A stretch of DNA of 64,000 bases from Bacteroidota bacterium (GTDB taxonomy: Bacteria > Bacteroidota > Bacteroidia > Chitinophagales > Chitinophagaceae), in contig SYIK01000010.1 in NCBI GenBank assembly GCA_005798905.1, positions 1 through 64,000 on the forward strand. Reading direction: 5' to 3'. This document shows positions 1 through 58,196 of this stretch, piece by piece. How positions within the stretch are numbered: the first letter of the stretch is position 1; every line of letters begins with the position of its first letter. Both the position numbers and the translations under genes were made by a program. The notes below the pieces were generated by a model. It was not told the DNA's origin, did not search any database, and saw nothing but the letters and a program-made list of their open reading frames with translations.

Positions 1-5
1 CTATT

Positions 6-142
6 TTCGGAGCCACTGCGCCCAACACGAGATTGCCGTAATTTTGGAGCAGCCCATTGGTGTCAACCGTTTTTTGAGTGGCTTTTCCATCCTCGTTCCT
101 CGGATGGCCGCCCCAAAACAACGGCAATCTCCGATCCGTTAT
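6..142. repeat. 137-bp dispersed repeat, copy 1; right part of an attC-like palindromic site ending at GTTAT
   Basis: Identical base for base to 49212-49348; contains gattgccgt/acggcaatc inverted arms; sequences diverge right after GTTAT. Left arm lies outside the window. Confidence 0.85.
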
Positions 143-2190
143 CGGCAACCCTTTGACGACAGAGCTAATTTGAAACTTTAGTGCAAACAACAAGAAACAT
201 AGAAAAAAAATGGATAGACAACTTTAAGAAGTCCTCTCTTGTTGACAAGACAAGCGGGACTTTTCAGAGTAGCTATGCACATCAGCTTTTCTATGGCAAA
301 CAAGACGACACTTACCCTTCTGACTTCCCTCACGACTTTTCGCACTTTTACAATTCTTGTGAAAGCACAGACCGAGACACCGCAATTGAAAATCTTACGG
401 AGTATTTGAGTTTTATCGGAATTAAAATTCGTAAAGAAGCAATTGTCAACCATCTTGAAAAGTTTCCAGACGATTTTACTAAGTTGACAAAAAAGTGTTA
501 TTACATTTTCAAAACTCTTGCACATTACGGAACAGACTTAAATATTGCAAACCCTTATCACGACAATAATGGCGACTTATTCTTTCTTCTAAGAATTGAA
601 TCGGAAGAAAGCATCAGTGGGGGACAACTAAACTTATTTGAAGATTTAGAACTTCCTGACCTTTATAAGAAAATCACAAACCTTCCAGACGGCTATGAAA
701 ATGATAAAACAATAACAGACCTGTTTGACAAAATTGAAAATAGCAACAGTAGTTTTTTTATTACAGGTAAAGCAGGAACAGGTAAATCTACATTCGTTCA
801 TTACTTTGCACAAAAGACAAAAAAGAAAGTTCTAATGACTGCATTCACGGGAATTGCAGCCATCAATGTTGGCGGACAAACCATACATTCATTTTTCCGT
901 TTCCCATTGAAGCCATTAATGCCAGAAGATGAGGAAATAACTATTTTCCGAAACTTCACACAGAAGTATAAAATCATTGAAAAAATTGACACAATCGTAA
1001 TTGACGAAGTTTCTATGCTTCGTTCAGACATTCTTGAAGGAATTGATTACTCTCTTCGTAAAAACGGAGGTGATCCCAACAAAAAATTTGGCGGCAAACA
1101 ACTACTTTTTATCGGAGATATATTTCAATTACCGCCAGTAGTTGATTCAACGGATGAAGTTGAAAAATTTCTTTTCTCCGAAGTTTACAAAAGCGAGTAT
1201 TTCTTTGATTCACACTCATACAAAGAAGTTAGTCCAACATATTTTGAATTTAAGAAATCGCATCGTCAAAAAGATGATATACCTTTTGTTCAATTATTAG
1301 ACGAGGTAAGAATATGCCAAGCAACCGACTTAACCTTGCGGAAAATTAATGAAAGATACAATCCAAATTACACCCCAAAAATTGATGAGTTTGTAATTAA
1401 TCTAACAGCAACAAATGCAATTGCAAATGCAGAGAACACAAAAAAGCTGTTAGAATTAACCTATACGAAATTTAATTTTGAAGCTGAAATCATAGGAGAG
1501 TTCAAGGAAGACAGGTATCCCACAGGGAAAACATTGGAATTGAAAAAAAATGCTCAAGTCATATTCATAAAGAATGATAGTGCTGGTGGCAAATGGGTTA
1601 ATGGAACAATCGCTAAAATTGACTTCATTTCAAGCGACTTAATAGAAGTTAGACTACAAAACGGTAGCACCCACAAGTTAGAGAAGGTTACTTGGGAAAA
1701 CAGGAAATACAAATACGATAAAGACAAGAAAAAAATTGTATCAGAGGTAATTGGAACATTTACCCAGTTTCCTATAAAATTAGCTTGGGCAATTACAATT
1801 CATAAAAGCCAAGGTTTAACATTTGACAATGTAATAATTGACCTTGGAACAGGAGCATTTGTAAATGGACAAATCTATACAGCACTTAGCAGATGCAGAA
1901 CACTGAATGGAATTACTCTCAAAAGAAAATTGCGTATTGAGGATATTATTGCCGACAAACGAATAATTAATTTTCACCAGACAGAACAAATTATTGACTC
2001 AATAAATTAATGGTAACACCAATCAGACTTCAATCAATAGTGCTACGGACAGACAGCAGGGCAGCCGATAACAAGGGGTTTGCGATAGCGGGGGTTCCGT
2101 GCTTCGCAGACACATTTGTGCAAGGTGGAAGTTCAGTTCTCCGAATGAAGTTTAGTGCTAAAACACCCCGCCATCGCAAACCCCCAAAAC
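138..2190 (+). mobile_element. Integron-cassette-like unit carrying a PIF1-like helicase gene and its own attC-like site
   Basis: 5' end GTTATCGGC (138-146) is the exact reverse complement of GCCGATAAC (2064-2072), which opens the palindromic site at the 3' end of the unit; the gene fills the space between. Confidence 0.55.
181..2010 (+). CDS. PIF1-like / AAA family ATPase-helicase with uncharacterised N-terminal region (GTG start)
   Basis: 609 aa; Walker A GKAGTGKST, Walker B-like IDTIVIDEVSM, C-terminal TIHKSQGLTFDNVIIDLG...YTALSRCR helicase motif. Confidence 0.85.
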   Translation: MQTTRNIEKKWIDNFKKSSLVDKTSGTFQSSYAHQLFYGKQDDTYPSDFPHDFSHFYNSCESTDRDTAIENLTEYLSFIGIKIRKEAIVNHLEKFPDDFTKLTKKCYYIFKTLAHYGTDLNIANPYHDNNGDLFFLLRIESEESISGGQLNLFEDLELPDLYKKITNLPDGYENDKTITDLFDKIENSNSSFFITGKAGTGKSTFVHYFAQKTKKKVLMTAFTGIAAINVGGQTIHSFFRFPLKPLMPEDEEITIFRNFTQKYKIIEKIDTIVIDEVSMLRSDILEGIDYSLRKNGGDPNKKFGGKQLLFIGDIFQLPPVVDSTDEVEKFLFSEVYKSEYFFDSHSYKEVSPTYFEFKKSHRQKDDIPFVQLLDEVRICQATDLTLRKINERYNPNYTPKIDEFVINLTATNAIANAENTKKLLELTYTKFNFEAEIIGEFKEDRYPTGKTLELKKNAQVIFIKNDSAGGKWVNGTIAKIDFISSDLIEVRLQNGSTHKLEKVTWENRKYKYDKDKKKIVSEVIGTFTQFPIKLAWAITIHKSQGLTFDNVIIDLGTGAFVNGQIYTALSRCRTLNGITLKRKLRIEDIIADKRIINFHQTEQIIDSIN

Positions 2191-2197
2191 GTTAAGG
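2064..2197. repeat. attC-like imperfect palindrome
   Basis: Left arm GGGGTTTGCGATaGCGGGG (~2075-2093) pairs with CCCCGCcATCGCAAACCCCC (2166-2185); bounded by GATAAC (2067-2072) and GTTAAGG (2191-2197). Confidence 0.65.
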
Positions 2198-2222
2198 GCA
2201 AGCATTTGGGACAGTGTATAAA

Positions 2223-2591
2223 ATGAACCACAATACAAGCCATCACGATGAACGCATTGCAAAAATGACATTCGCTTCGGTGTATCCACATTATCTTACA
2301 AAAGTGGAAAAGAAAGGTAGAACAAAAACAGAGCTGTTTCAAGTAATTGAATGGTTGACCGGTTATGATGAAAAAAAGCTGCAAGAACTAATTAATAAAA
2401 AAGTAACATTTGAAAAATTCTTTCAAAAAGCTAAACTAAATCCGAATGCCCATTTAATCACTGGCGTAATTTGCGGTTATCGGATAGAAGAAATAAAAAA
2501 TTCATTAACAAAACAGGTTAGGTATTTAGACAAGTTGATTGACGAATTGGCCAAAGGAAGAAAAATGGAAAAGATTTTGCGAGTTGGGTAA
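2223..2591 (+). CDS. DUF2200 family protein
   Basis: [38 protein letters not shown]...WLTGY...KVTFEKFF...[20 protein letters not shown]...[21 protein letters not shown] recognised from memory; ORF opens at 2214, internal ATG 2223 likely. Confidence 0.75.
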
Positions 2592-2612
2592 GTTGTCTAT
2601 TGTTAATTCTGT

Positions 2613-2642
2613 TTTTGGTGAGTAATGTTATTTGTATTTTTG
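2613..2642 (+). promoter_or_regulatory. Candidate Bacteroidota promoter (TTTG-N18-TATTTTTG) for the U32 gene
   Basis: TTTG at 2613-2616 and TATTTTTG at 2635-2642, close to consensus TTTG-N19-TAnnTTTG; start codon at 2662. Confidence 0.5.
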
Positions 2643-2661
2643 GCCACTGAATCTACATTTC

Positions 2662-3903
2662 ATGAAATCCAATACAAAAATTGAATTGATGGCTCCAGCC
2701 GGCAACTACGAGGCATTAATGGCGGCCATTCATGCTGGCGCTAATTCCGTGTATTTCGGTATTGAACAGCTTAATATGCGTGCTCGTGCTACCATGAATT
2801 TTACAATTGATGATATTCCTGAAATTGTGGCGCGCTGTAGTGCTAAAAATGTGAGAACATACATCACCTTAAACACCATTGTTTACGACCACGACATTTC
2901 CTTGATGAAACGCATCATTGATACCGCCAAAAAACATAACATCACAGCCATCATCGCTGCTGATCAAGCCGTTATTATGTATGCAAAACAAGTGGGCTTG
3001 GAAGTACATATTTCTACTCAAGTAAATATTACCAATCTTGAAACCGTTAAATTTTATTCCCATTTTGCTGATGTAATGGTCCTTTCGCGCGAATTGAGTA
3101 TAAACCAAATGAAAAGCATTGTAAATGGTATTAAGCGAGAAAAAATAATGGGGCCTGCCGGTAAATTAATCCAAATTGAAGTATTTGCCCACGGAGCGCT
3201 ATGTATGGCCGTTTCTGGAAAATGCTACCTTAGTTTGCATTCCCATAATTCTTCCGCCAATCGTGGTGCATGTATTCAAAACTGTCGACGCACTTATAAA
3301 GTTATTGATATTGAAGAAGGGTATGAACTTGAAATCGATAACGAATACATCATGTCGCCCAAAGATTTATGCACCATCGATTTTTTAGACCAATTGCTTG
3401 ATAGTGGAATTTCTGTACTAAAAATTGAAGGAAGAGGACGTGCACCAGAATATGTAAAAACAGTAATTGAATGCTACCGCGAAGCCATTGATGCATATTG
3501 CAACAAAACATATTCGCCCATCTTGGCAGAAGCATGGATGGAACGACTCGAAAAAGTGTACAACCGCGGCTTTTGGAGCGGATATTATTTGGGGCAAAAA
3601 ATGGGCGAATGGTCCAAAGGACATGGCTCACAAGCAACACAAAAAAAAATATACCTTGGAAAGGGCATTAAGTATTTTCCAAAATCTAAAGTAGGAGAAT
3701 TTAAAATTGAAGCACATTCGTTAAAAAAGGGAGACACCGTTTTAATTATGGGGCCGACCACAGGAGTAATTGAACAAGTAGTTGATGAAATTCGTGTAGA
3801 TTTAAAAAAAATAAGCGAAGCAAAAAAAGGAGATCATTGCTCCATTGCGGTAAATGAAGTTATTCGCCCTTCGGATAAATTGTATAAAATTATTAGCACT
3901 TAA
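2662..3903 (+). CDS. U32 peptidase family protein (TrhP/RlhA-like RNA hydroxylase candidate)
   Basis: ELMAPAGNYEALMAAIHAGANSVYFG, CMAVSGKCYLS, SANRGACIQNCRR, LKIEGRGRAPEYV motifs; ORF opens at 2632, internal ATG at 2662 likely. Confidence 0.85.
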   Translation: MKSNTKIELMAPAGNYEALMAAIHAGANSVYFGIEQLNMRARATMNFTIDDIPEIVARCSAKNVRTYITLNTIVYDHDISLMKRIIDTAKKHNITAIIAADQAVIMYAKQVGLEVHISTQVNITNLETVKFYSHFADVMVLSRELSINQMKSIVNGIKREKIMGPAGKLIQIEVFAHGALCMAVSGKCYLSLHSHNSSANRGACIQNCRRTYKVIDIEEGYELEIDNEYIMSPKDLCTIDFLDQLLDSGISVLKIEGRGRAPEYVKTVIECYREAIDAYCNKTYSPILAEAWMERLEKVYNRGFWSGYYLGQKMGEWSKGHGSQATQKKIYLGKGIKYFPKSKVGEFKIEAHSLKKGDTVLIMGPTTGVIEQVVDEIRVDLKKISEAKKGDHCSIAVNEVIRPSDKLYKIIST

Positions 3904-4142
3904 TGGTAACTATTACTCAACAAAGAGACAAGTGCATTGGCTGTAATTACTGTGTTGAGTTGGCACATGTGCAATGGCGCATGTCAAAAAAAGACGGTAA
4001 GAGCGTGCTTCTTGGTGCCAAAGATAAAAAGGGCTTTCATACCGTTAAAGTGGAAGATGAATTTTTTGAACCCAATGTAAAAGCCGCACAAGCATGTCCG
4101 GTAAAAATAATTTCAGTCCGCTCTTCGTCCGTTTCTCCTTAA
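3903..4142 (+). CDS. Small ferredoxin ([4Fe-4S], CxxCxxC...ACPV)
   Basis: DKCIGCNYCVELAHVQW ... QACPVKII; ATG overlaps the TAA of the U32 gene (taATGg). Confidence 0.8.
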   Translation: MVTITQQRDKCIGCNYCVELAHVQWRMSKKDGKSVLLGAKDKKGFHTVKVEDEFFEPNVKAAQACPVKIISVRSSSVSP

Positions 4143-4272
4143 AGAAGAGTGTTTATTTTGTTGGCAAGTCCATTTAAATAACGCTTTCGAAGTATCACCC
4201 ATCCGCACACACGTAAGAACAGATGTTAAATCAATTCTGAACCGTAAAAGGTGAAATTTATCTTACTCTCTA

Positions 4273-4286
4273 ATGATATTTATCAT
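4273..4286. promoter_or_regulatory. FNR/CRP-family-like operator palindrome ATGATATTTATCAT
   Basis: 6-bp perfect inverted arms (ATGATA/TATCAT) with TT spacer; resembles TTGAT-N4-ATCAA; about 41 bp upstream of the inferred TSS of the molybdoenzyme operon. Confidence 0.5.
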
Positions 4287-4308
4287 ACTATTTTTTTGTG
4301 CTTACAAA

Positions 4309-4316
4309 TAGTTTTG
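4309..4316 (+). promoter_or_regulatory. Candidate -7 element TAGTTTTG
   Basis: Matches Bacteroidota TAnnTTTG; no TTTG at the normal -33 spacing. Confidence 0.4.
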
Positions 4317-4383
4317 CAAACACAAGATTTTAGCTTGTATTGGAATGAAACAAAACAATCTGCAATAATCAAATCCAGAAAGT

Positions 4384-7300
4384 ATGACTAATAGAAGAAA
4401 ATTTTTAAAAACATCCCTCATCAGTGGAACTGGAACAGTGCTTCTTTCCAGTCTACCTTTTGATAGTTTTTCGAAAATGTTTTCATTTTTCGACCCAATC
4501 GATATCAACAACCCATTGTCTGCTTACCCTAATCGAGATTGGGAAAAAACCTATCGTGATATGTGGAATTATGATGATGAGTTCACATTTCTTTGTGCCC
4601 CTAACGACACGCACAATTGTCTTTTAAAAGCGCATGTAAAGAATGGGGCAGTCATACGTATTGCACCAAGTTATGCTTTTTCAAAAGCAGAAGATATGCA
4701 AGGGAATCAGCCAACTGCACGATGGGAGCCACGTTGCTGCCAAAAAGGATTGGCATTGGCAAGGCGTTTTTATGGAGATAGAAGAGCTAAATATCCTCTT
4801 ATTCGTGAAGGATATTTAAAATGGATTCAAAGCGGTATGCCACGAAGAGAAGATGGAAGCATCCCTCCAGAATTTCTTCAAGGAAGAGGTAAAGAAGCGT
4901 TTGTTAAAATTTCTTGGGATGAAACTTTTAAATATACAGCTGCTTCGTTAGCAAATATTGCTAAAACTTATAATGGAAAAAAAGGACAGGAGTTTCTTGA
5001 AAAACAAGGATATGACCCATTGATGGTTGAAGCAACCGAAGGTCATGGGGTTGAAGTTTTGAAATTTAGAGGTGGAATGGCCCCATTAGGCGTTACACGA
5101 ATTTTTGGAATGAATCGTTTGGCAAATTCTCTTGCTCTACTCGACAACCATATCAACAATAAAGGTCCCGAAGAATCTAAAGGTGCAAGAACATGGGATA
5201 GTTACGCATGGCACACCGACTTACCTCCAGGACATCCAATGGTTACGGGACAACAAACTGTCGATTTTGATCTTTGTTGCGTTGATCATTCCAATCACAT
5301 ACTTGTTTGGGGAATGAATTGGATAACTACAAAAATGCCAGATGCGCATTGGCTTACTGAGGCTAGAATGAAGGGTGCTAAGATTACTGTAATTGCTTGT
5401 GAATATAGTGCTACTGCAAATAAAGCAGATAATTTAATTGTATGTCGCCCTGGGGTTACTCCAGCCTTAGCACTCGGTTTTGCACATGTAATTATTAGAG
5501 ATAAACTTTTCGATACAGATTTTATGAAAAAATATACCGACCTGCCTTTTTTAGTCAGGATGGATAATCAAAAAATGCTGAAACCGACCGATATCATTGC
5601 TAATTATCAAAAACCCGACTTAAAAAATTACATCGAAATTCTTAAGAAAGGAGAAAAAAGCAAATCATCTTTAAAACAGGGTGTGCCATTTGTGGATGAA
5701 GAAATGGCAAAAGAATGGGGTGATTTTATGATTTGGGATGAGACCAAAAATGCAATCTCAGTTATTACACGCGATGATTATGGTAAGTACATGATTGAAA
5801 AAGGAGTTAATCCGGTTTTAGAAGGAAAATTCAAAATAAAAACCATAGATGGTAAAGAAATAGAAGTAAGAACTGTTTTTGATTTGATGAAAGAATATGT
5901 GATGGAAAACTACGACCCAAACACAGTTGAAGAATTAACATGGACACCTGTGAAAGGTATTGAAACTGTTGCAAAAGAAATTGCAAAAAATAATGGATCA
6001 ACCTTGTTTGCAATGGGCATGGGACCAAACCAATTTTTTAATAATGATTTGAAAGATCGTGCGATTTTCTTTTTAGCAAGCATCACAGGTAATGTTGGAA
6101 GAATTGGAGGTAACGTTGGTTCTTTTGCTGGAAATTATCGCGGAGCTTTATTCTCTGGCATTCCGGGATATATTGCTGAAGATCCGTTCAACATTGAATT
6201 AGATGGAACAAAACCAACGAAAATTAAAAAATATATGCATTATGAATCGGCTCATTATTTTAATAATGGTGACCGAATTCTTAGAATGGGTAAAAAAAAT
6301 ATGACAGGCAAAACTCATATGCCTACTCCTACAAAGTCTATTATGGTTTCAAATGGTAACTCTTTGCTGGCAAATGCAAAAGGGCATTATGAAAACGTAA
6401 TCAATATTTATCCTAAAATTGAATTTATTGGTGTGCATGATTGGTGGTGGACTGGATCGTGTGAATATGCTGATATTGTATACCCCGTTGATTCTTGGGC
6501 AGAATTCAAATACCCGGATATGACCATGTCAGTTACAAATCCATTTCTTTATGTGTTCCCGCGTACCCCATTAAAACGAATATTTGATACCAAAGGAGAT
6601 ATTGAAGTACTAGCAGGAATTGCATCGGCATTTGGAGATTTAACAGGCGACTCCCGATTTAAAGATTATTTTAAGTTTGTTCATGACAATAAACCAGAAG
6701 TTTATTTGCAGAGAATTCTGAATGCAAGCCAGGGTACAAAAGGATATAAGTTTGAAGAATTGGAAGAAAAAGCAAAAATGGGAATTCCCTCATTGATGAT
6801 GACTCGAACTACCCCAAAATATGTAGGTATGGAGCAAGTTGATGAGAATAAACAGTGGTACACAAAATCAGGAAGATTAGAGTTTTACAGAGATGAACCA
6901 GAGTTTATTGAAGCTGGTGAAAATATGGTTGTTTTTCGCGAACCCATTGACTCTACTTTCTTCGAACCTAATGTAATTGTTGGAAAAAAGCACCCTTGTA
7001 TCATGCCCGACGAACCGGAAAAATATGGTGTAGATATTAATGATCTTGCTACTGATACACGGCAATCAAGAAATATAGTAAAACCATGGAGCGAACTTAA
7101 AAACACAAAACATCCTTTACAAAAAGCAGACAAGGATTATAAATTTATATTCCACACTCCAAAATTTAGACATGGTGCACACACCACTCCTGTTGACACC
7201 GACATCGTTGCTGTTTGGTTTGGACCTTTTGGCGATATGCATCGAAAAGACAAACGCATCCCATTTGTTACAGAGTTATATGTTGATATTAACCCATTAG

Positions 7301-7863
7301 ATGCCAGAGAGCTTGGTGTAGATGATGGTGACTATGTATGGATTGATGCTGACCCTTCTGACCGACCATTTCGTGGATGGCAAAAGAAAAAAGACGGACC
7401 AGAGTATGAACTTGCTCGATTAAAAGCACGTGCTCGTTTTTATCCTGGAACTCCAAGAGGTGTAACAAGAATGTGGCACAATGCTTATGGTGCTACATAC
7501 GGGTCAGTGAAAGGAGCAAAAGAAAATGAGAATGGTCTCGCAAAAAATAATAAATCTGGTTATCAGGCATTGTTCCGCAATGGATCTCATCAAAGTTGCA
7601 CTAGGGCGTGGTTGAAACCAACTTTACTGACTGATTCGTTGGTTCGAAAAAATAATTTTGGACAAGGAATTGGAAAAGGATTTGAAATAGATGTTCATGG
7701 AGCAACTGGAAATCCTAGGGAATCATTTGTAAAAATATCACTTGCTGAAAAAGGCGGAGTTGATGGAAATGGTTTATGGGAAGGTGTTGAACAAGGTATT
7801 CGTCCAACTTACGAAAACGATGATTTTAAGAAATTCCTAAAAGGTGGTTTCATTAAGAAATAA
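4384..7863 (+). CDS. Type II DMSO reductase-family molybdopterin oxidoreductase, catalytic alpha subunit (NXR/NarG-like, Tat signal)
   Basis: 1159 aa; Tat motif [18 protein letters not shown]...PRCCQKG FeS region; [43 protein letters not shown]; followed by cognate FeS beta and chaperone genes. Confidence 0.85.
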
Positions 7864-7876
7864 AAACAAATAAATT

Positions 7877-9007
7877 ATGGCTAAAGTAAATAATTGGCAG
7901 TTGAAAAGGGAAATGGAATATCCTTACGAGGAAGTTAAGCCCAAAAAACAAATCGCTTATGTGTTTGATACCAATAAGTGTATTGCTTGTCAGACCTGTA
8001 CTGTTGCTTGCAAAACAACATGGACCGCAGGTAAAGGCGAAGAAACTATTTTCTTCAACAATGTTGAAACAAAACCTTATGGCGGATACCCGCAAAAATG
8101 GGATTTAAATACGTTAAAAGAACTTGACGATCAGCAATGGGATGGCAAAGGAGTTTATAAGGGCTCAACCATTTTTGAAAATACCGCACCAGGTGAAAGG
8201 GTGAAAGGATGGCGTCCACCTGAAAGGAATTATGCATTCCCAAATATAGGCGAGGATGAAGTTATGGGCACAATGGAAAAGGGCGCTTTCTTCAATGGTA
8301 TACACGACACATGGATGTTTTACTTAGCACGTATTTGTAATCATTGTTCTTATCCTGCATGTTTAGCCGCTTGTCCACGGAAAGCCATTTATAAAAGGGA
8401 TGAAGACGGAATCGTATTAATCGATCAGTCCCGCTGCCGTGGTTATAAAGAATGTGTGAAAGCATGCCCCTACAAAAAAACTTTTTTTAATATGGTAACA
8501 CGTGTATCTGAAAAATGCATTGGTTGTTATCCGCTCATTGAAAAAGGTGAACAACCAAGATGTGTAACTACCTGTATCGGAAAAATAAGAATGCAGGGTT
8601 TTATGGAAGATGCCAAAGAACCGAGAAAAGATAATCCGATTGATATGATTGTAAGAATTAGAAAAATCGCCTTGCCATTATATTCACAGTATGGCACTCA
8701 GCCAAATGTTTACTATGTGCCACCAATTCACGTTCCATTTGATTTTCTTCACCAAATGTTTGGACCAACAGTAGAAGAAACTATTCGTATCTACAAAAAC
8801 ATGAAAGACGACAAAGAATTGTTGGCTGCGTTTATGTTGTTTGGTAATACAAATAAGATTATTCATTCTTATAGAGCAGAAGAGAATCATGCAGTCGGTT
8901 TTAACGAAATTGGTGATGAAATAGTAAGAGTTCCATATGTTGAACCTGTGTTTAAGCGACCTCATTGGGATGAACAATTACAAACATTCCATCATAACAC
9001 ACCTTAA
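7877..9007 (+). CDS. FeS beta subunit (NxrB/NarH-like)
   Basis: CIACQTCTVACKTTW, FFNNVETKPYGGYPQ, CNHCSYPACLAACPRKAIYKR, CRGYKECVKACPYKK, CIGCYPLIEKGEQPRCVTTCIGKIR. Confidence 0.9.
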   Translation: MAKVNNWQLKREMEYPYEEVKPKKQIAYVFDTNKCIACQTCTVACKTTWTAGKGEETIFFNNVETKPYGGYPQKWDLNTLKELDDQQWDGKGVYKGSTIFENTAPGERVKGWRPPERNYAFPNIGEDEVMGTMEKGAFFNGIHDTWMFYLARICNHCSYPACLAACPRKAIYKRDEDGIVLIDQSRCRGYKECVKACPYKKTFFNMVTRVSEKCIGCYPLIEKGEQPRCVTTCIGKIRMQGFMEDAKEPRKDNPIDMIVRIRKIALPLYSQYGTQPNVYYVPPIHVPFDFLHQMFGPTVEETIRIYKNMKDDKELLAAFMLFGNTNKIIHSYRAEENHAVGFNEIGDEIVRVPYVEPVFKRPHWDEQLQTFHHNTP

Positions 9008-9030
9008 GTTTAAGAATAAAATCAATAACA

Positions 9031-10344
9031 ATGAACGAAATGAATTTTATGAAAAAATTAATCATTTTAGTCGCAACAGCTTTTTTCTTACATCTGCAAA
9101 CAGAGGCACAGAATTTAGCTGATGGAGAAAAAATTTTCAAAACTACTTGTACAGCATGTCATACTATTGGAAAGGGAAAATTAGTAGGGCCAGATTTAGC
9201 AGGTGTAAATGCAAGAAGAACACCAAAATGGTTATTAGAATTTACTAAATCACCACAAGCATTGATCAAAAAAGGTGATCCAATAGCTACGAAACTATTT
9301 AACGATTACAATAAGATTCAAATGCCAGATCCAAATTTGACAGAAGTTCAAATTAAAAATGTGTTGGCCTTTATAAAAAGTAAAAGTGCTCCAGCAACCG
9401 TAGTAAAACCTGTAATCGCAAATACTAAAGCTACTACTGCAAAAGCTGTAATTTCAAACACTACTTCTAAAATACAAGAAGTAAAAAAAACATCCTCTCC
9501 TGTTGCAGATTGGATTGATGCCGAATATAAAATCAAAAGTTTTTCATTTGCAGGGGAAATAAATCCAAAAGATTTGAATGCATCAATTTGGAACAATCAG
9601 AAAACAAATATGCTACCTATTTCAGTTCAAAATTTTACTTATCCTAATTTACAAACTGCTTCGGTTGACTCTATAAGTGTTAAATCTGTTTATCGGTCCA
9701 ATCAGGTTGTCTTTTTATTGGAGTGGTTGGATTCTTCAAAAAATGTTGAAGTAGATGTTGATAAATTCTGTGATCAGATCGCTATTCAATTTCCACTGAA
9801 TACAAATGAAATTCCAAGTTACATGATGGGTAATAAAGATGGGATGGTTCATATAATTCATTGGAAATCCATTTGGCAGGAAGACAAAGAAAAAGGATAT
9901 AGAGATGTACAAGTAATGTATCCCAATATGTGGGTGGATATATATCCAGGATTAGAAAGTTATTTAGACCGTAGTAAACGTGTTTATGCTCAGGATATAA
10001 CTTCCGAACAAATTGTTGAAACACATTCTTTCGGTAATATGCCAGGAACTTACTCTCATAATCCGATGTCTCAAATAAAACGTAAAGAGCCGGTTGAAGA
10101 AGCCAATGCTGTCGGGTTTGGAACAATTGCAACACAGGAAACACAGCAAGCAAAAGCATGGGGGCAATGGTCAAATGGTAAATGGACAGTTTGTATAGTA
10201 GTACCCGTAAATACAGGTAATATTTATAAAGCAAAATTTACGGACAAAACCAAAGTAGCGTTTGCATTGTGGGATGGTGGTTTCGGCAACATTGGAGGTA
10301 GAAAACATTTTATTCCCTGGGTTGATTTGATTCTTGAAAAATAA
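9031..10344 (+). CDS. Gamma subunit: signal peptide + monoheme cytochrome c domain + ethylbenzene dehydrogenase-type heme-binding domain
   Basis: MKKLIILVATAFFLHLQTEAQ signal (alternative start 9049); CTACHTIGKGKLVGPDLAGV; C-terminal FALWDGGFGNIGGRKHFIPWVDLIL. Confidence 0.8.
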   Translation: MNEMNFMKKLIILVATAFFLHLQTEAQNLADGEKIFKTTCTACHTIGKGKLVGPDLAGVNARRTPKWLLEFTKSPQALIKKGDPIATKLFNDYNKIQMPDPNLTEVQIKNVLAFIKSKSAPATVVKPVIANTKATTAKAVISNTTSKIQEVKKTSSPVADWIDAEYKIKSFSFAGEINPKDLNASIWNNQKTNMLPISVQNFTYPNLQTASVDSISVKSVYRSNQVVFLLEWLDSSKNVEVDVDKFCDQIAIQFPLNTNEIPSYMMGNKDGMVHIIHWKSIWQEDKEKGYRDVQVMYPNMWVDIYPGLESYLDRSKRVYAQDITSEQIVETHSFGNMPGTYSHNPMSQIKRKEPVEEANAVGFGTIATQETQQAKAWGQWSNGKWTVCIVVPVNTGNIYKAKFTDKTKVAFALWDGGFGNIGGRKHFIPWVDLILEK

Positions 10345-10359
10345 TTTATCAAACATATT

Positions 10360-10944
10360 ATGATGAAAACAAAAAAAGCAAATCTTCAATTATTTCAAGC
10401 AGACATGTATCGGCTGTTGGCGAACTGTTTTGATTTTCCAACTAAAGAACGCTTATCTACCATCAAAGAAATAACAGAAGGTTTGAGCCAGATTGGTTAT
10501 CCCGATATGGAAATTGCTAACATACTTGTAACGCTTAATGAGGCTTTTGACGAAAGTGAAATTATTAACGACTACTCTCTTATTTTTATTAAAGGTGGAG
10601 TCCCTTTGAATGAAAGCTACACTTTGCAAAAATTCAATAGCGTATCTGATGTCAGTGCTTTTTATAAAGCATTTGGATTTAGCCCAAAAACCGGAGAAAA
10701 TCCAGATTCAATTATGTATCAATTAGAATTTTTAGCGCTACTTTTAGTAAAAATTAATACTGCCCCAAATGAAGAAGCGAAAGAAATAACAGAAAAAGCA
10801 TACCGCTCTTTTCTTGAAGAGCATTGCGGTGAATTTGCATTATCCCTAGCAAAACGAATACGTGAAGGAAATGCAGGGACGTATTATTTTACAGTTTCTT
10901 ATTTGCTCGAATCTTTGATTACACAGGAATTGATAACCAAATGA
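10360..10944 (+). CDS. TorD/NarJ-like molybdoenzyme assembly chaperone
   Basis: 194 aa, position right after the gamma gene, helical sequence with LIFIKGGVPLNESYTL...MYQLEFLALLL. Confidence 0.7.
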   Translation: MMKTKKANLQLFQADMYRLLANCFDFPTKERLSTIKEITEGLSQIGYPDMEIANILVTLNEAFDESEIINDYSLIFIKGGVPLNESYTLQKFNSVSDVSAFYKAFGFSPKTGENPDSIMYQLEFLALLLVKINTAPNEEAKEITEKAYRSFLEEHCGEFALSLAKRIREGNAGTYYFTVSYLLESLITQELITK

Positions 10945-48881: not shown

Positions 48882-49059
48882 CCCTAACGAAAAGTGGTAT
48901 TGTTTTGTTTATTTTAATCTGTTACTTTGGAAAAAAGTATAAATAAAATACAAAGTCTGTTAGATAAAGAAAAAATTATGCGAAACCCGTAGTTTCGCTA
49001 AGCCAACATATTTTGGAAAAAAAGCGAAGATTTTAATAGATTTACTTCGTATAATAAAT

Positions 49060-49345
49060 GTTGAACCGCAATGGCAGCAGCCAACGGAGTTTGCTATGCA
49101 GAATGGGTACTGTGGCTGCTACCACGAAATACCGCACCGCAGGAAACGGAGCTTTGTATTTCTTAATGCGGTTCAACGGATCGGGGAATGACACCCATAA
49201 AATGACCTTTATTCGGAGCCACTGCGCCCAACACGAGATTGCCGTAATTTTGGAGCAGCCCATTGGTGTCAACCGTTTTTTGAGTGGCTTTTCCATCCTC
49301 GTTCCTCGGATGGCCGCCCCAAAACAACGGCAATCTCCGATCCGT
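49060..49345. mobile_element. Small ORF-poor integron-cassette-like unit including attC-like site
   Basis: 5' GTTGAACCGCA (49060-49070) is exact reverse complement of TGCGGTTCAAC (49167-49177), which opens a palindromic site ending at GTTAT 49344-49348. Confidence 0.55.
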
Positions 49346-49350
49346 TATAG
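49171..49350. repeat. attC-like palindrome containing 137-bp repeat copy 2
   Basis: aacggatcgg (49175-49184)/ccgatccgtt (49337-49346); gattgccgt (49237-49245)/acggcaatc (49327-49335); ccatcc/ggatgg (49293-49298/49308-49313); 49212-49348 identical to 6-142. Confidence 0.7.
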
Positions 49351-49369
49351 CCCATTTTAAAACGACCGA

Positions 49370-56750: not shown

Positions 56751-58196
56751 ATGAAACGATTTATCTTTTTTATTTTTTTAGCATTTTTAAACTTAGTTGT
56801 CGTAGGACAAGAATCCGCGTTTGAGCTAAAAGTAAATTTTAAGCCGTATAAAAATCAATACATTTATCTTGGCTATTATCTTGGAAAACAAAAACCCATT
56901 GTTGATTCGGTTCTTTTGGACGAAAACAGTTTTGGCGTTTTTAAAAGTGATAAAAAAAAGGAGCGCGGTGTTTACTTAATTGGCTTTCCAAACAAATCGG
57001 GTTACTTCGAATTGCTACTTGATAAAGAACAAAAATTTTCAGTTTCTGCCGATAGCAGCGACGTGTTGAATTCGCTAAAATTTGAAAGCTCTTTCGACAA
57101 TAATTTATTTATTGAATACCAAAAATTTACGGCTTCGAAAGGAAAAGAAATAGAAGCAGCAAAACAACAATTGGTTTTAGCAAAAACAAAAACAGATTCC
57201 CTTTTTTGGATAAATGCTGCGGAAAAAAGCAGCAATGAAATTCATCAAAATCGTGCGCATTATGCAACACAATATCCCGATGCGACAATCACAGCTTTAT
57301 TGAATGCAATGAAAGTGCCGACGATTCCTCCGATTGCGGAACACCCCAATGGAAAATACGATTCGGTTTTTGCATATCAATTTTATAAAAATCATTTTTG
57401 GGATAATGTTGATTTTTTTGACGAACGATTAGTCCGTACTTCTTTTTTTGAAGAAAAATTGGACCAGTTTTTCGAACAAGTTGTTTATCCAAATCCCGAT
57501 TCGGTTATAAAAGAAATAAACTGGATGCTCGGCTATGCAAGCATTAACGCTGAAATGGAAAAATTTTTATTGGTAAAATTTGTCAACCGTTATCTCAACA
57601 TGAAATACATGTGGGATGATCTTGTTTACGTTCATTTATTTGAAAAATATTTTTCTCAAAAAGAATACGAGTGGCTTACAGAAAAAGGGAAGAAAATTAT
57701 TTTTGATCGTGCGTATAATTTAATGGCGAATTTGTTTGGCTCTCAAGCCAATAATATTGAATTACCCGACAGTAGCGGAATTCCTCAGCATCTTTATTCA
57801 ATTTCAAATCCATATACGGTGGTTGTTTTTTGGGATCCGACTTGCGGGCATTGTAAAGAAACGCTTCCAAAAATGGATTCTATTTATAAAGCAAAATGGA
57901 AAATTGCGAATGTAAAAATATTTGCAATTGCAAAAGAAACTGATGGCAGTAAAAAAGACTGGTTACAGTTTATAAATGAACACAAACTTGAAGAATGGCA
58001 ACATGTATATTATTCCAAGGCCGATAACGACACCAGGGTAAATAACAATATCCCAAGTTATTTTCAGCTTTACGATGTGCAAACTGTTCCTTCTTTGTAT
58101 TTATTGGATAAAGACAAACGAATCTTAGCTAAAAAAATTCCTTTTGAGCAATTAGACGAAGTGCTTCAATATAAATTAAAAGAAAAAAACAAGTAG
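56751..58196 (+). CDS. DUF5106/thioredoxin-like (TlpA-type) protein
   Basis: Signal peptide; FWDPTCGHCKETLPKMDSIY; -7 element TATCTTTG at 56723-56730. Confidence 0.85.
   Translation: MKRFIFFIFLAFLNLVVVGQESAFELKVNFKPYKNQYIYLGYYLGKQKPIVDSVLLDENSFGVFKSDKKKERGVYLIGFPNKSGYFELLLDKEQKFSVSADSSDVLNSLKFESSFDNNLFIEYQKFTASKGKEIEAAKQQLVLAKTKTDSLFWINAAEKSSNEIHQNRAHYATQYPDATITALLNAMKVPTIPPIAEHPNGKYDSVFAYQFYKNHFWDNVDFFDERLVRTSFFEEKLDQFFEQVVYPNPDSVIKEINWMLGYASINAEMEKFLLVKFVNRYLNMKYMWDDLVYVHLFEKYFSQKEYEWLTEKGKKIIFDRAYNLMANLFGSQANNIELPDSSGIPQHLYSISNPYTVVVFWDPTCGHCKETLPKMDSIYKAKWKIANVKIFAIAKETDGSKKDWLQFINEHKLEEWQHVYYSKADNDTRVNNNIPSYFQLYDVQTVPSLYLLDKDKRILAKKIPFEQLDEVLQYKLKEKNK

Follow-up and report, generated by a model that had tools for sequence, protein, structure and literature searches.

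A PIF1-like helicase gene as putative mobile-cassette cargo of an integron-like system widespread in Bacteroidota

In classical integrons, exchange takes place at G|TT, and an attC site has an outer core that matches the beginning of its own cassette; in an array, that beginning is the 3′ core of the preceding site. The insertion that characterizes the integrase IntI has been described as essential for integron function and as not fully conserved in an "integron-like" subgroup (PMC8138268). Within Bacteroidetes, IntegronFinder 2.0 reported a single complete integron, that of Salinibacter (PMC9024848). The recombinase-associated acquired interbacterial defence (rAID) of gut Bacteroidales is described in PMC12247911. 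Here, we consider a 64,000-nucleotide stretch of a Chitinophagaceae genome (the window), in which a PIF1-like helicase gene would be, as read from the DNA, mobile-cassette cargo of an integron-like system widespread in Bacteroidota.

The initial annotation had proposed an integron-cassette geometry around this gene, and the geometry is supported, with sites that behave like attC sites (Table 1). The 9-mers GTTATCGGC (138-146) and GCCGATAAC (2064-2072) are perfect reverse complements, as claimed, and the latter opens a palindrome with 19-nt arms (2075-2093 / 2166-2184, 95%) that is followed by GTTAAGGGC (2191-2199). For the bottom strand of 2055-2200, the fold has an energy of -31.2 kcal/mol (z = -4.4), which none of 200 shuffles equalled. 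As to the further claim that the relation is hard to get by chance, the 9-mer match alone is weak because GCCGATAAC has one further occurrence in the window, at 58020, and it is the neighbouring palindrome together with the neighbour rule in related loci (see below) that goes beyond chance. A second hairpin and the repeated leader had been overlooked. This second palindrome ends just 5′ of position 138, and the 9-mer match therefore joins two neighbouring sites. Cutting at GTT would free a cassette circle with a complete hairpin site, and for cassette 138-2190 the predicted circle junction is CCCCCAAAAC|GTTATCGGC. With Rfam (evalue mode), no match was obtained in window positions 1-6000, and the hairpin is thus not accounted for by a known RNA family. 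The closest helicase homologues among 100 relatives are less than 50% identical, and sites 92-96% identical to 2064-2199 are present in four other genomes. As had been stated, there is no integrase within the window; the array is truncated on its left, however, because the window begins at base 1 of its contig (C5). Two sites recognized by a covariance model lie within 1-2199, and the array may continue beyond the contig end to a recombinase on contig C19.

Table 1. Features of the putative cassette array and of the second leader copy in the window
Feature	Position	Strand	Details
3′ part of repeated leader, attC-like end of ORF-less "cassette 0"	1..137	+	arms 29-54 / 106-131
Cassette 1	138..2190	+	2053 nt; starts at GTT boundary, stops just before next GTT
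PIF1-like helicase gene of cassette 1	181..2010	+	ORF, 609 aa, GTG start; Pfam PF05970 E 4.2e-30
attC-like site of cassette 1	2064..2199	+	136 nt; cores GCCGATAAC 2064-2072 and GTTAAGGGC 2191-2199; covariance model 127.7 bits
Probable cassette 2	2191..2591	+	starts at GTT; DUF2200 gene 2223-2591, Pfam PF09966 E 6.4e-53
Second leader copy	48890..49059	+	only the two ends of the recombinase gene remain; attI-like region precedes 49060
Complete ORF-less "cassette 0"	49060..49343	+	GTTGAACCGCA 49060, TGCGGTTCAAC 49167, ends CCGATCC|GTT

The DUF2200 unit is probably a cassette whose own attC was lost, since it starts at GTT and, at another locus (L044), an attC-like site comes straight after a gene 79.8% identical to it; a search 3′ of the DUF2200 gene did not find the expected partner core GCCCTTAAC. 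Further downstream, positions 4384-10944 have an operon-like layout comprising a 1159-aa molybdopterin-oxidoreductase-like protein, a ferredoxin-type subunit, a cytochrome-like subunit and a chaperone-like gene, a set that, from reading the translations, appears to resemble a type II DMSO-family reductase of the nitrate or a related kind.

How widespread are sites of this kind? By BLAST, the hairpin sequence was matched in 37 of 150 related genomes, and among named Bacteroidota contigs 23 stretches contain a 22-nt piece of it, with Flavobacteriales, Cytophagales, Chitinophagales and Saprospirales among the orders represented. Training on 35 diverse sites, some of them supplied by the scanned genomes themselves, gave a covariance model that places sites in at least 107 of the 150 relatives, roughly 70% (E <= 0.01; best 22 candidates per genome). 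Within the genome under study, a homology search with the helicase-site sequence returned only itself and chance-level matches. The initial annotation had counted a lack of other such sites in the genome against its proposal; the covariance model and a contig-end scan, rather than the homology search, did find further ones, at window positions 18-146 (40.4 bits) and 49224-49352 (33.4 bits) and at C11:12-146 (94.7 bits) and C18:1171-1275 (25.9 bits). Sites are nevertheless few in this genome, which we count against the explanation preferred below.

In the 35-site alignment, two-sided compensatory changes in the stem number 154, compared with 48.8 (sd 4.9) after shuffling, and the stem covariation score of 0.616 (shuffled, 0.151) falls to about 0.1 or less when the partner is slid by 1-3 columns. 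AACA, a single A within the 5′ arm, and CGTT do not vary. Between the two outer cores of one site, pairing stays at the shuffled level (64.3% vs 63.6%); it is the neighbour that is matched, the 3′ core of one site (GTTxxxxxx) complementing the 5′ core of the next (xxxxxxAAC). Pairing is perfect at all six variable core positions in 25 of 38 neighbouring pairs and holds for at least five of the six in 28 of 38, the maximum in 5000 shuffles being 17. Outer cores that do not covary within a site and yet match those of the neighbour are what exchange at GTT predicts. Each cassette unit is a gene plus a hairpin site of 130-200 nt. We infer that folded single strands may be the main recombination substrate; the bias in stability is only modest, the bottom strand being the more stable one in 46 of 74 sites (p = 0.015).

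The leader in front of the helicase cassette occurs at six places in the genome, and window positions 1-137 are identical to 49207-49343 at 135 of 137 positions. An ordinary upstream attC at 18-146 was considered and rejected, since the leader comparison shows that this segment lies inside a larger repeated attC (49167-49343), one that belongs to an ORF-less cassette. Three leader copies reach the GTT boundary and three different cassettes start exactly there, with the helicase cassette at 138, GTTATAGCC at 49344 and GTTGTGCGA on contig C18; the copies part immediately after GTTAT. The same leader thus precedes different cassettes exactly at GTT, which runs against the outcome that the initial annotation had held to be damaging, a single block with no alternative cassettes at G|TT. 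The first cassette on C18 (L127, 207-1121) contains a PDC-S18 candidate anti-phage defence gene (PADLOC E 1.3e-132, DUF5655 domain) with its own attC.

To which leader copy does the helicase cassette belong? Contigs C19 and C17 end inside the leader, and C5 (the window) and C18 begin inside it; on C19, the leader behind the recombinase gene runs into the contig end. Most simply, the cassette with the helicase would belong either to the recombinase-bearing C19 leader or to a recombinase-less copy at the end of C17. Synteny does not favour either C19 or C17, as none of 12 relatives has a close counterpart of the flanking peptidase gene. Of the two copies, we infer that the window array may go with the one that bears the C19 recombinase.

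The second leader copy in the window matches both flanks of the C19 recombinase gene as well as its 3′ leader. Recombinase-attI-cassette units of this kind, with no intact recombinase gene, show a MITE-like spread (window 48890-49343; the C17 end, L144; C7, L116), and both ends of the recombinase gene are still recognizable in the window and C17 copies. On reading the sequences, transposase-like genes are seen at or inside attC-like sites (L060, IS110-like and beside an attC end; L014; L116, 1-430), with a common sequence after the GTT core in L060 and L014. IS elements that target attC sites are known, and the L060/L014 pattern recalls them.

Which enzyme could move such cassettes? Canonical IntI was not found in this 99.7% complete genome, where nothing exceeds the NCBIfam integrase_gron cut-off (best score 127.6 vs 265 bits), and one intact IntI-like tyrosine recombinase of 292 aa was found (C19:335225-336104), with the leader repeat directly behind its gene. 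The segment from GKGxKDR to HxxRHSF spans 65-68 aa in 55 of 55 members of its clade, against 107 aa in 22 of 22 IntI. All 55 homologues lack the IntI insertion of roughly 40 residues that all 22 IntI compared carry, and the same gap appears in the alignment with the solved IntI4 structure (2a3v). In a tree rooted with three Xer sequences, the recombinase falls on the IntI side (support 96) and IntI forms one clade (100); the tree suggests that IntI nests inside the insertion-less clade, but a separate clade is not rejected by the AU test (p = 0.40), and no claim of nesting is made here.

These data bear on the suggestion that the locus is either CALIN-like or a distinct recombination system. 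As an ordinary CALIN, the locus would hold classical cassettes served by a canonical IntI that lies elsewhere, has been lost, or is missing from the assembly. The sites do obey attC logic, and canonical IntI is encoded by 105 of the 396 phylum genomes, few of which belong to this class, as well as in one of the 150 close relatives (G107, of the same order), where it could act on such sites. Against this stand the lack of any IntI above cut-off in a 99.7% complete genome, the disparity between one relative with IntI and at least 107 of the same 150 with sites, and arrays that adjoin the insertion-less recombinase instead. We regard an ordinary CALIN as unlikely. A distinct system is favoured because the genome has no IntI above cut-off and the recombinase that heads arrays is IntI-like and insertion-less.

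Array linkage was examined at 32 loci picked by recombinase alone, each with at least 3 kb of downstream sequence. Perfect site links on the same strand were found downstream at 15 of the 32, and at least a first-cassette match at 18 (none in shuffled sequence for either measure); at the remaining 14, a detector restricted to long-arm sites of 60-210 nt found no array or first junction. Relatives that head arrays are about 35-55% identical to the C19 recombinase, and 78% in one congener. Their first junctions mostly lie 100-330 nt past the recombinase stop, and a leader junction motif recurs, the first cassette often following an AT-rich motif near TTGCGTATATTTA..|GTT; at fixed spacing, the attI of the genome under study matches this motif poorly. 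Two genomes share a common 286-nt platform (95.8%) and diverge at GTTAG. One of them (L097) has the recombinase in the divergent, classical arrangement, and the notion that an array always follows its recombinase on the same strand was rejected on this account. Downstream of a recombinase of the same clade in another genome (G088; L093 / L169) tandem repeats of about 87-90 nt take the place of long attC sites and may form another type of site array.

Alternatively, the cassettes could be real and be moved by XerC/XerD or another recombinase rather than by the C19 enzyme. Two Xer-like enzymes are encoded in the genome, and the 14 loci with neither array nor first junction by the detector fit this account. 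The clade examined for array linkage is, however, the IntI-like one, which stands at array heads with a common junction motif and clusters with IntI, not with the three Xer sequences of the tree; we therefore give the Xer account little credence. Least credible of all are dispersed structured repeats between genes (REP/MITE-like elements or terminators) that undergo no cassette recombination: the leader is itself a dispersed repeat with internally deleted copies and the hairpins could double as terminators, but such elements would not match a neighbour's outer core rather than their own, and they would leave unexplained why arrays adjoin a site-specific recombinase and why a junction motif recurs there.

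We thus consider it very probable that the window opens with the contig-cut left end of a Bacteroidota integron-like cassette array and, jointly, that an insertion-less IntI-like recombinase would be its mover. Weighing against this are, besides the small number of sites in this genome, the assembly break between recombinase and window, the 14 loci at which the detector found neither array nor first junction, the poor fit of this genome's attI to the junction motif, the canonical IntI of G107 and the modest strand bias. An enzyme of this type would recombine the folded sites, mainly as single strands. Cassettes would leave as circles, and the circles would insert at an AT-rich attI-like site beside the recombinase gene or at other sites of an array. 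In this genome the likely enzyme would be the C19 recombinase, excision and integration both being ascribed to its type from sequence comparison.

A literature search of incomplete coverage returned no description of this system as an integron, and we take it to be a new integron variant. Sites with integron logic are present in at least 107 of 150 relatives, almost all of them lacking canonical IntI, and arrays lie beside insertion-less recombinases; if confirmed, this would widen the known cassette pool of Bacteroidota. The comparisons lean towards Bacteroidia having a widespread integron lineage of their own, whose IntI-like recombinases never had the insertion or lost it and which includes rAID and the tet(X)/tnpF loci as members. 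In that case, recombination of hairpin cassette sites does not require the insertion, and a large pool of cassettes would have escaped notice because search tools key on IntI.

How does this system compare with described ones? With chromosomal integrons (class 1 IntI1, the Vibrio superintegron) it shares the unit of a gene plus a hairpin site, the G|TT boundary, complementarity between the start of a cassette and the 5′ core of the attC that belongs to it, palindromes conserved in structure and not in sequence, ORF-less cassettes, and tandem arrays beside an IntI-related tyrosine recombinase. It differs in that this recombinase lacks the IntI-specific catalytic-domain insertion (roughly 40 aa) and in the 3′ core, which is not a strict GTTRRRY: GTT is invariant and the bases that follow often break RRRY (GTTATCGGC, GTTAGCGGC, GTTGTGTGC). 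Furthermore, the stems are long and nearly perfect, the core-stem spacers differ in length between the two sides (about 1-2 nt against 5-6 nt), and most arrays are downstream of the recombinase gene and co-oriented with it, L097 being divergent.

The integrase of a Bacteroides ovatus plasmid (L154 / L232, NZ_CP081918) is 45.7% identical to the C19 recombinase. On this plasmid the clade recombinase is followed by immunity genes, which fits the rAID description in PMC12247911; co-oriented short genes and conserved intergenic motifs, also reported there, are further points of likeness. The core rule (at least 8 nt) holds for 9 of 14 neighbouring intergenic pairs in the B. ovatus array, against 7 of 211 non-neighbours. 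The Bacteroides sites are roughly 50-60 nt with an ATTA core, whereas those described here are longer with GTTA, and the cargo there consists of immunity genes, while here it comprises the helicase, DUF2200 and one candidate defence gene (PDC-S18). The locus therefore does not show the rAID combination of recombinase, co-oriented orphan immunity genes and intergenic motifs, although its recombinase is related. If confirmed, the present system would supply a mechanism for gene gain by rAID arrays, a point that the rAID authors leave open (PMC12247911).

The third comparison is with the TnpF/XerD recombinases associated with tet(X) on Acinetobacter plasmids, which belong to the same clade (52-55% identical). 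Such tet(X3) loci were seen at L152, L153 (about 6853-8211) and L157, on Acinetobacter / pHH1107 plasmids. There, tet(X3) occupies the first-cassette position behind the recombinase and is followed by a partial attC of this site family (covariance-model E 2.7e-5 and 1.5e-4). Unlike in the arrays described above, the attC is truncated, the N-terminus of the recombinase is shortened in the annotation, and the unit has come to move together with plasmids and an IS91-like element. This arrangement suggests that the tetracycline-destroying gene tet(X) passed through an integron-like platform of Bacteroidota, in which it was formerly a cassette.
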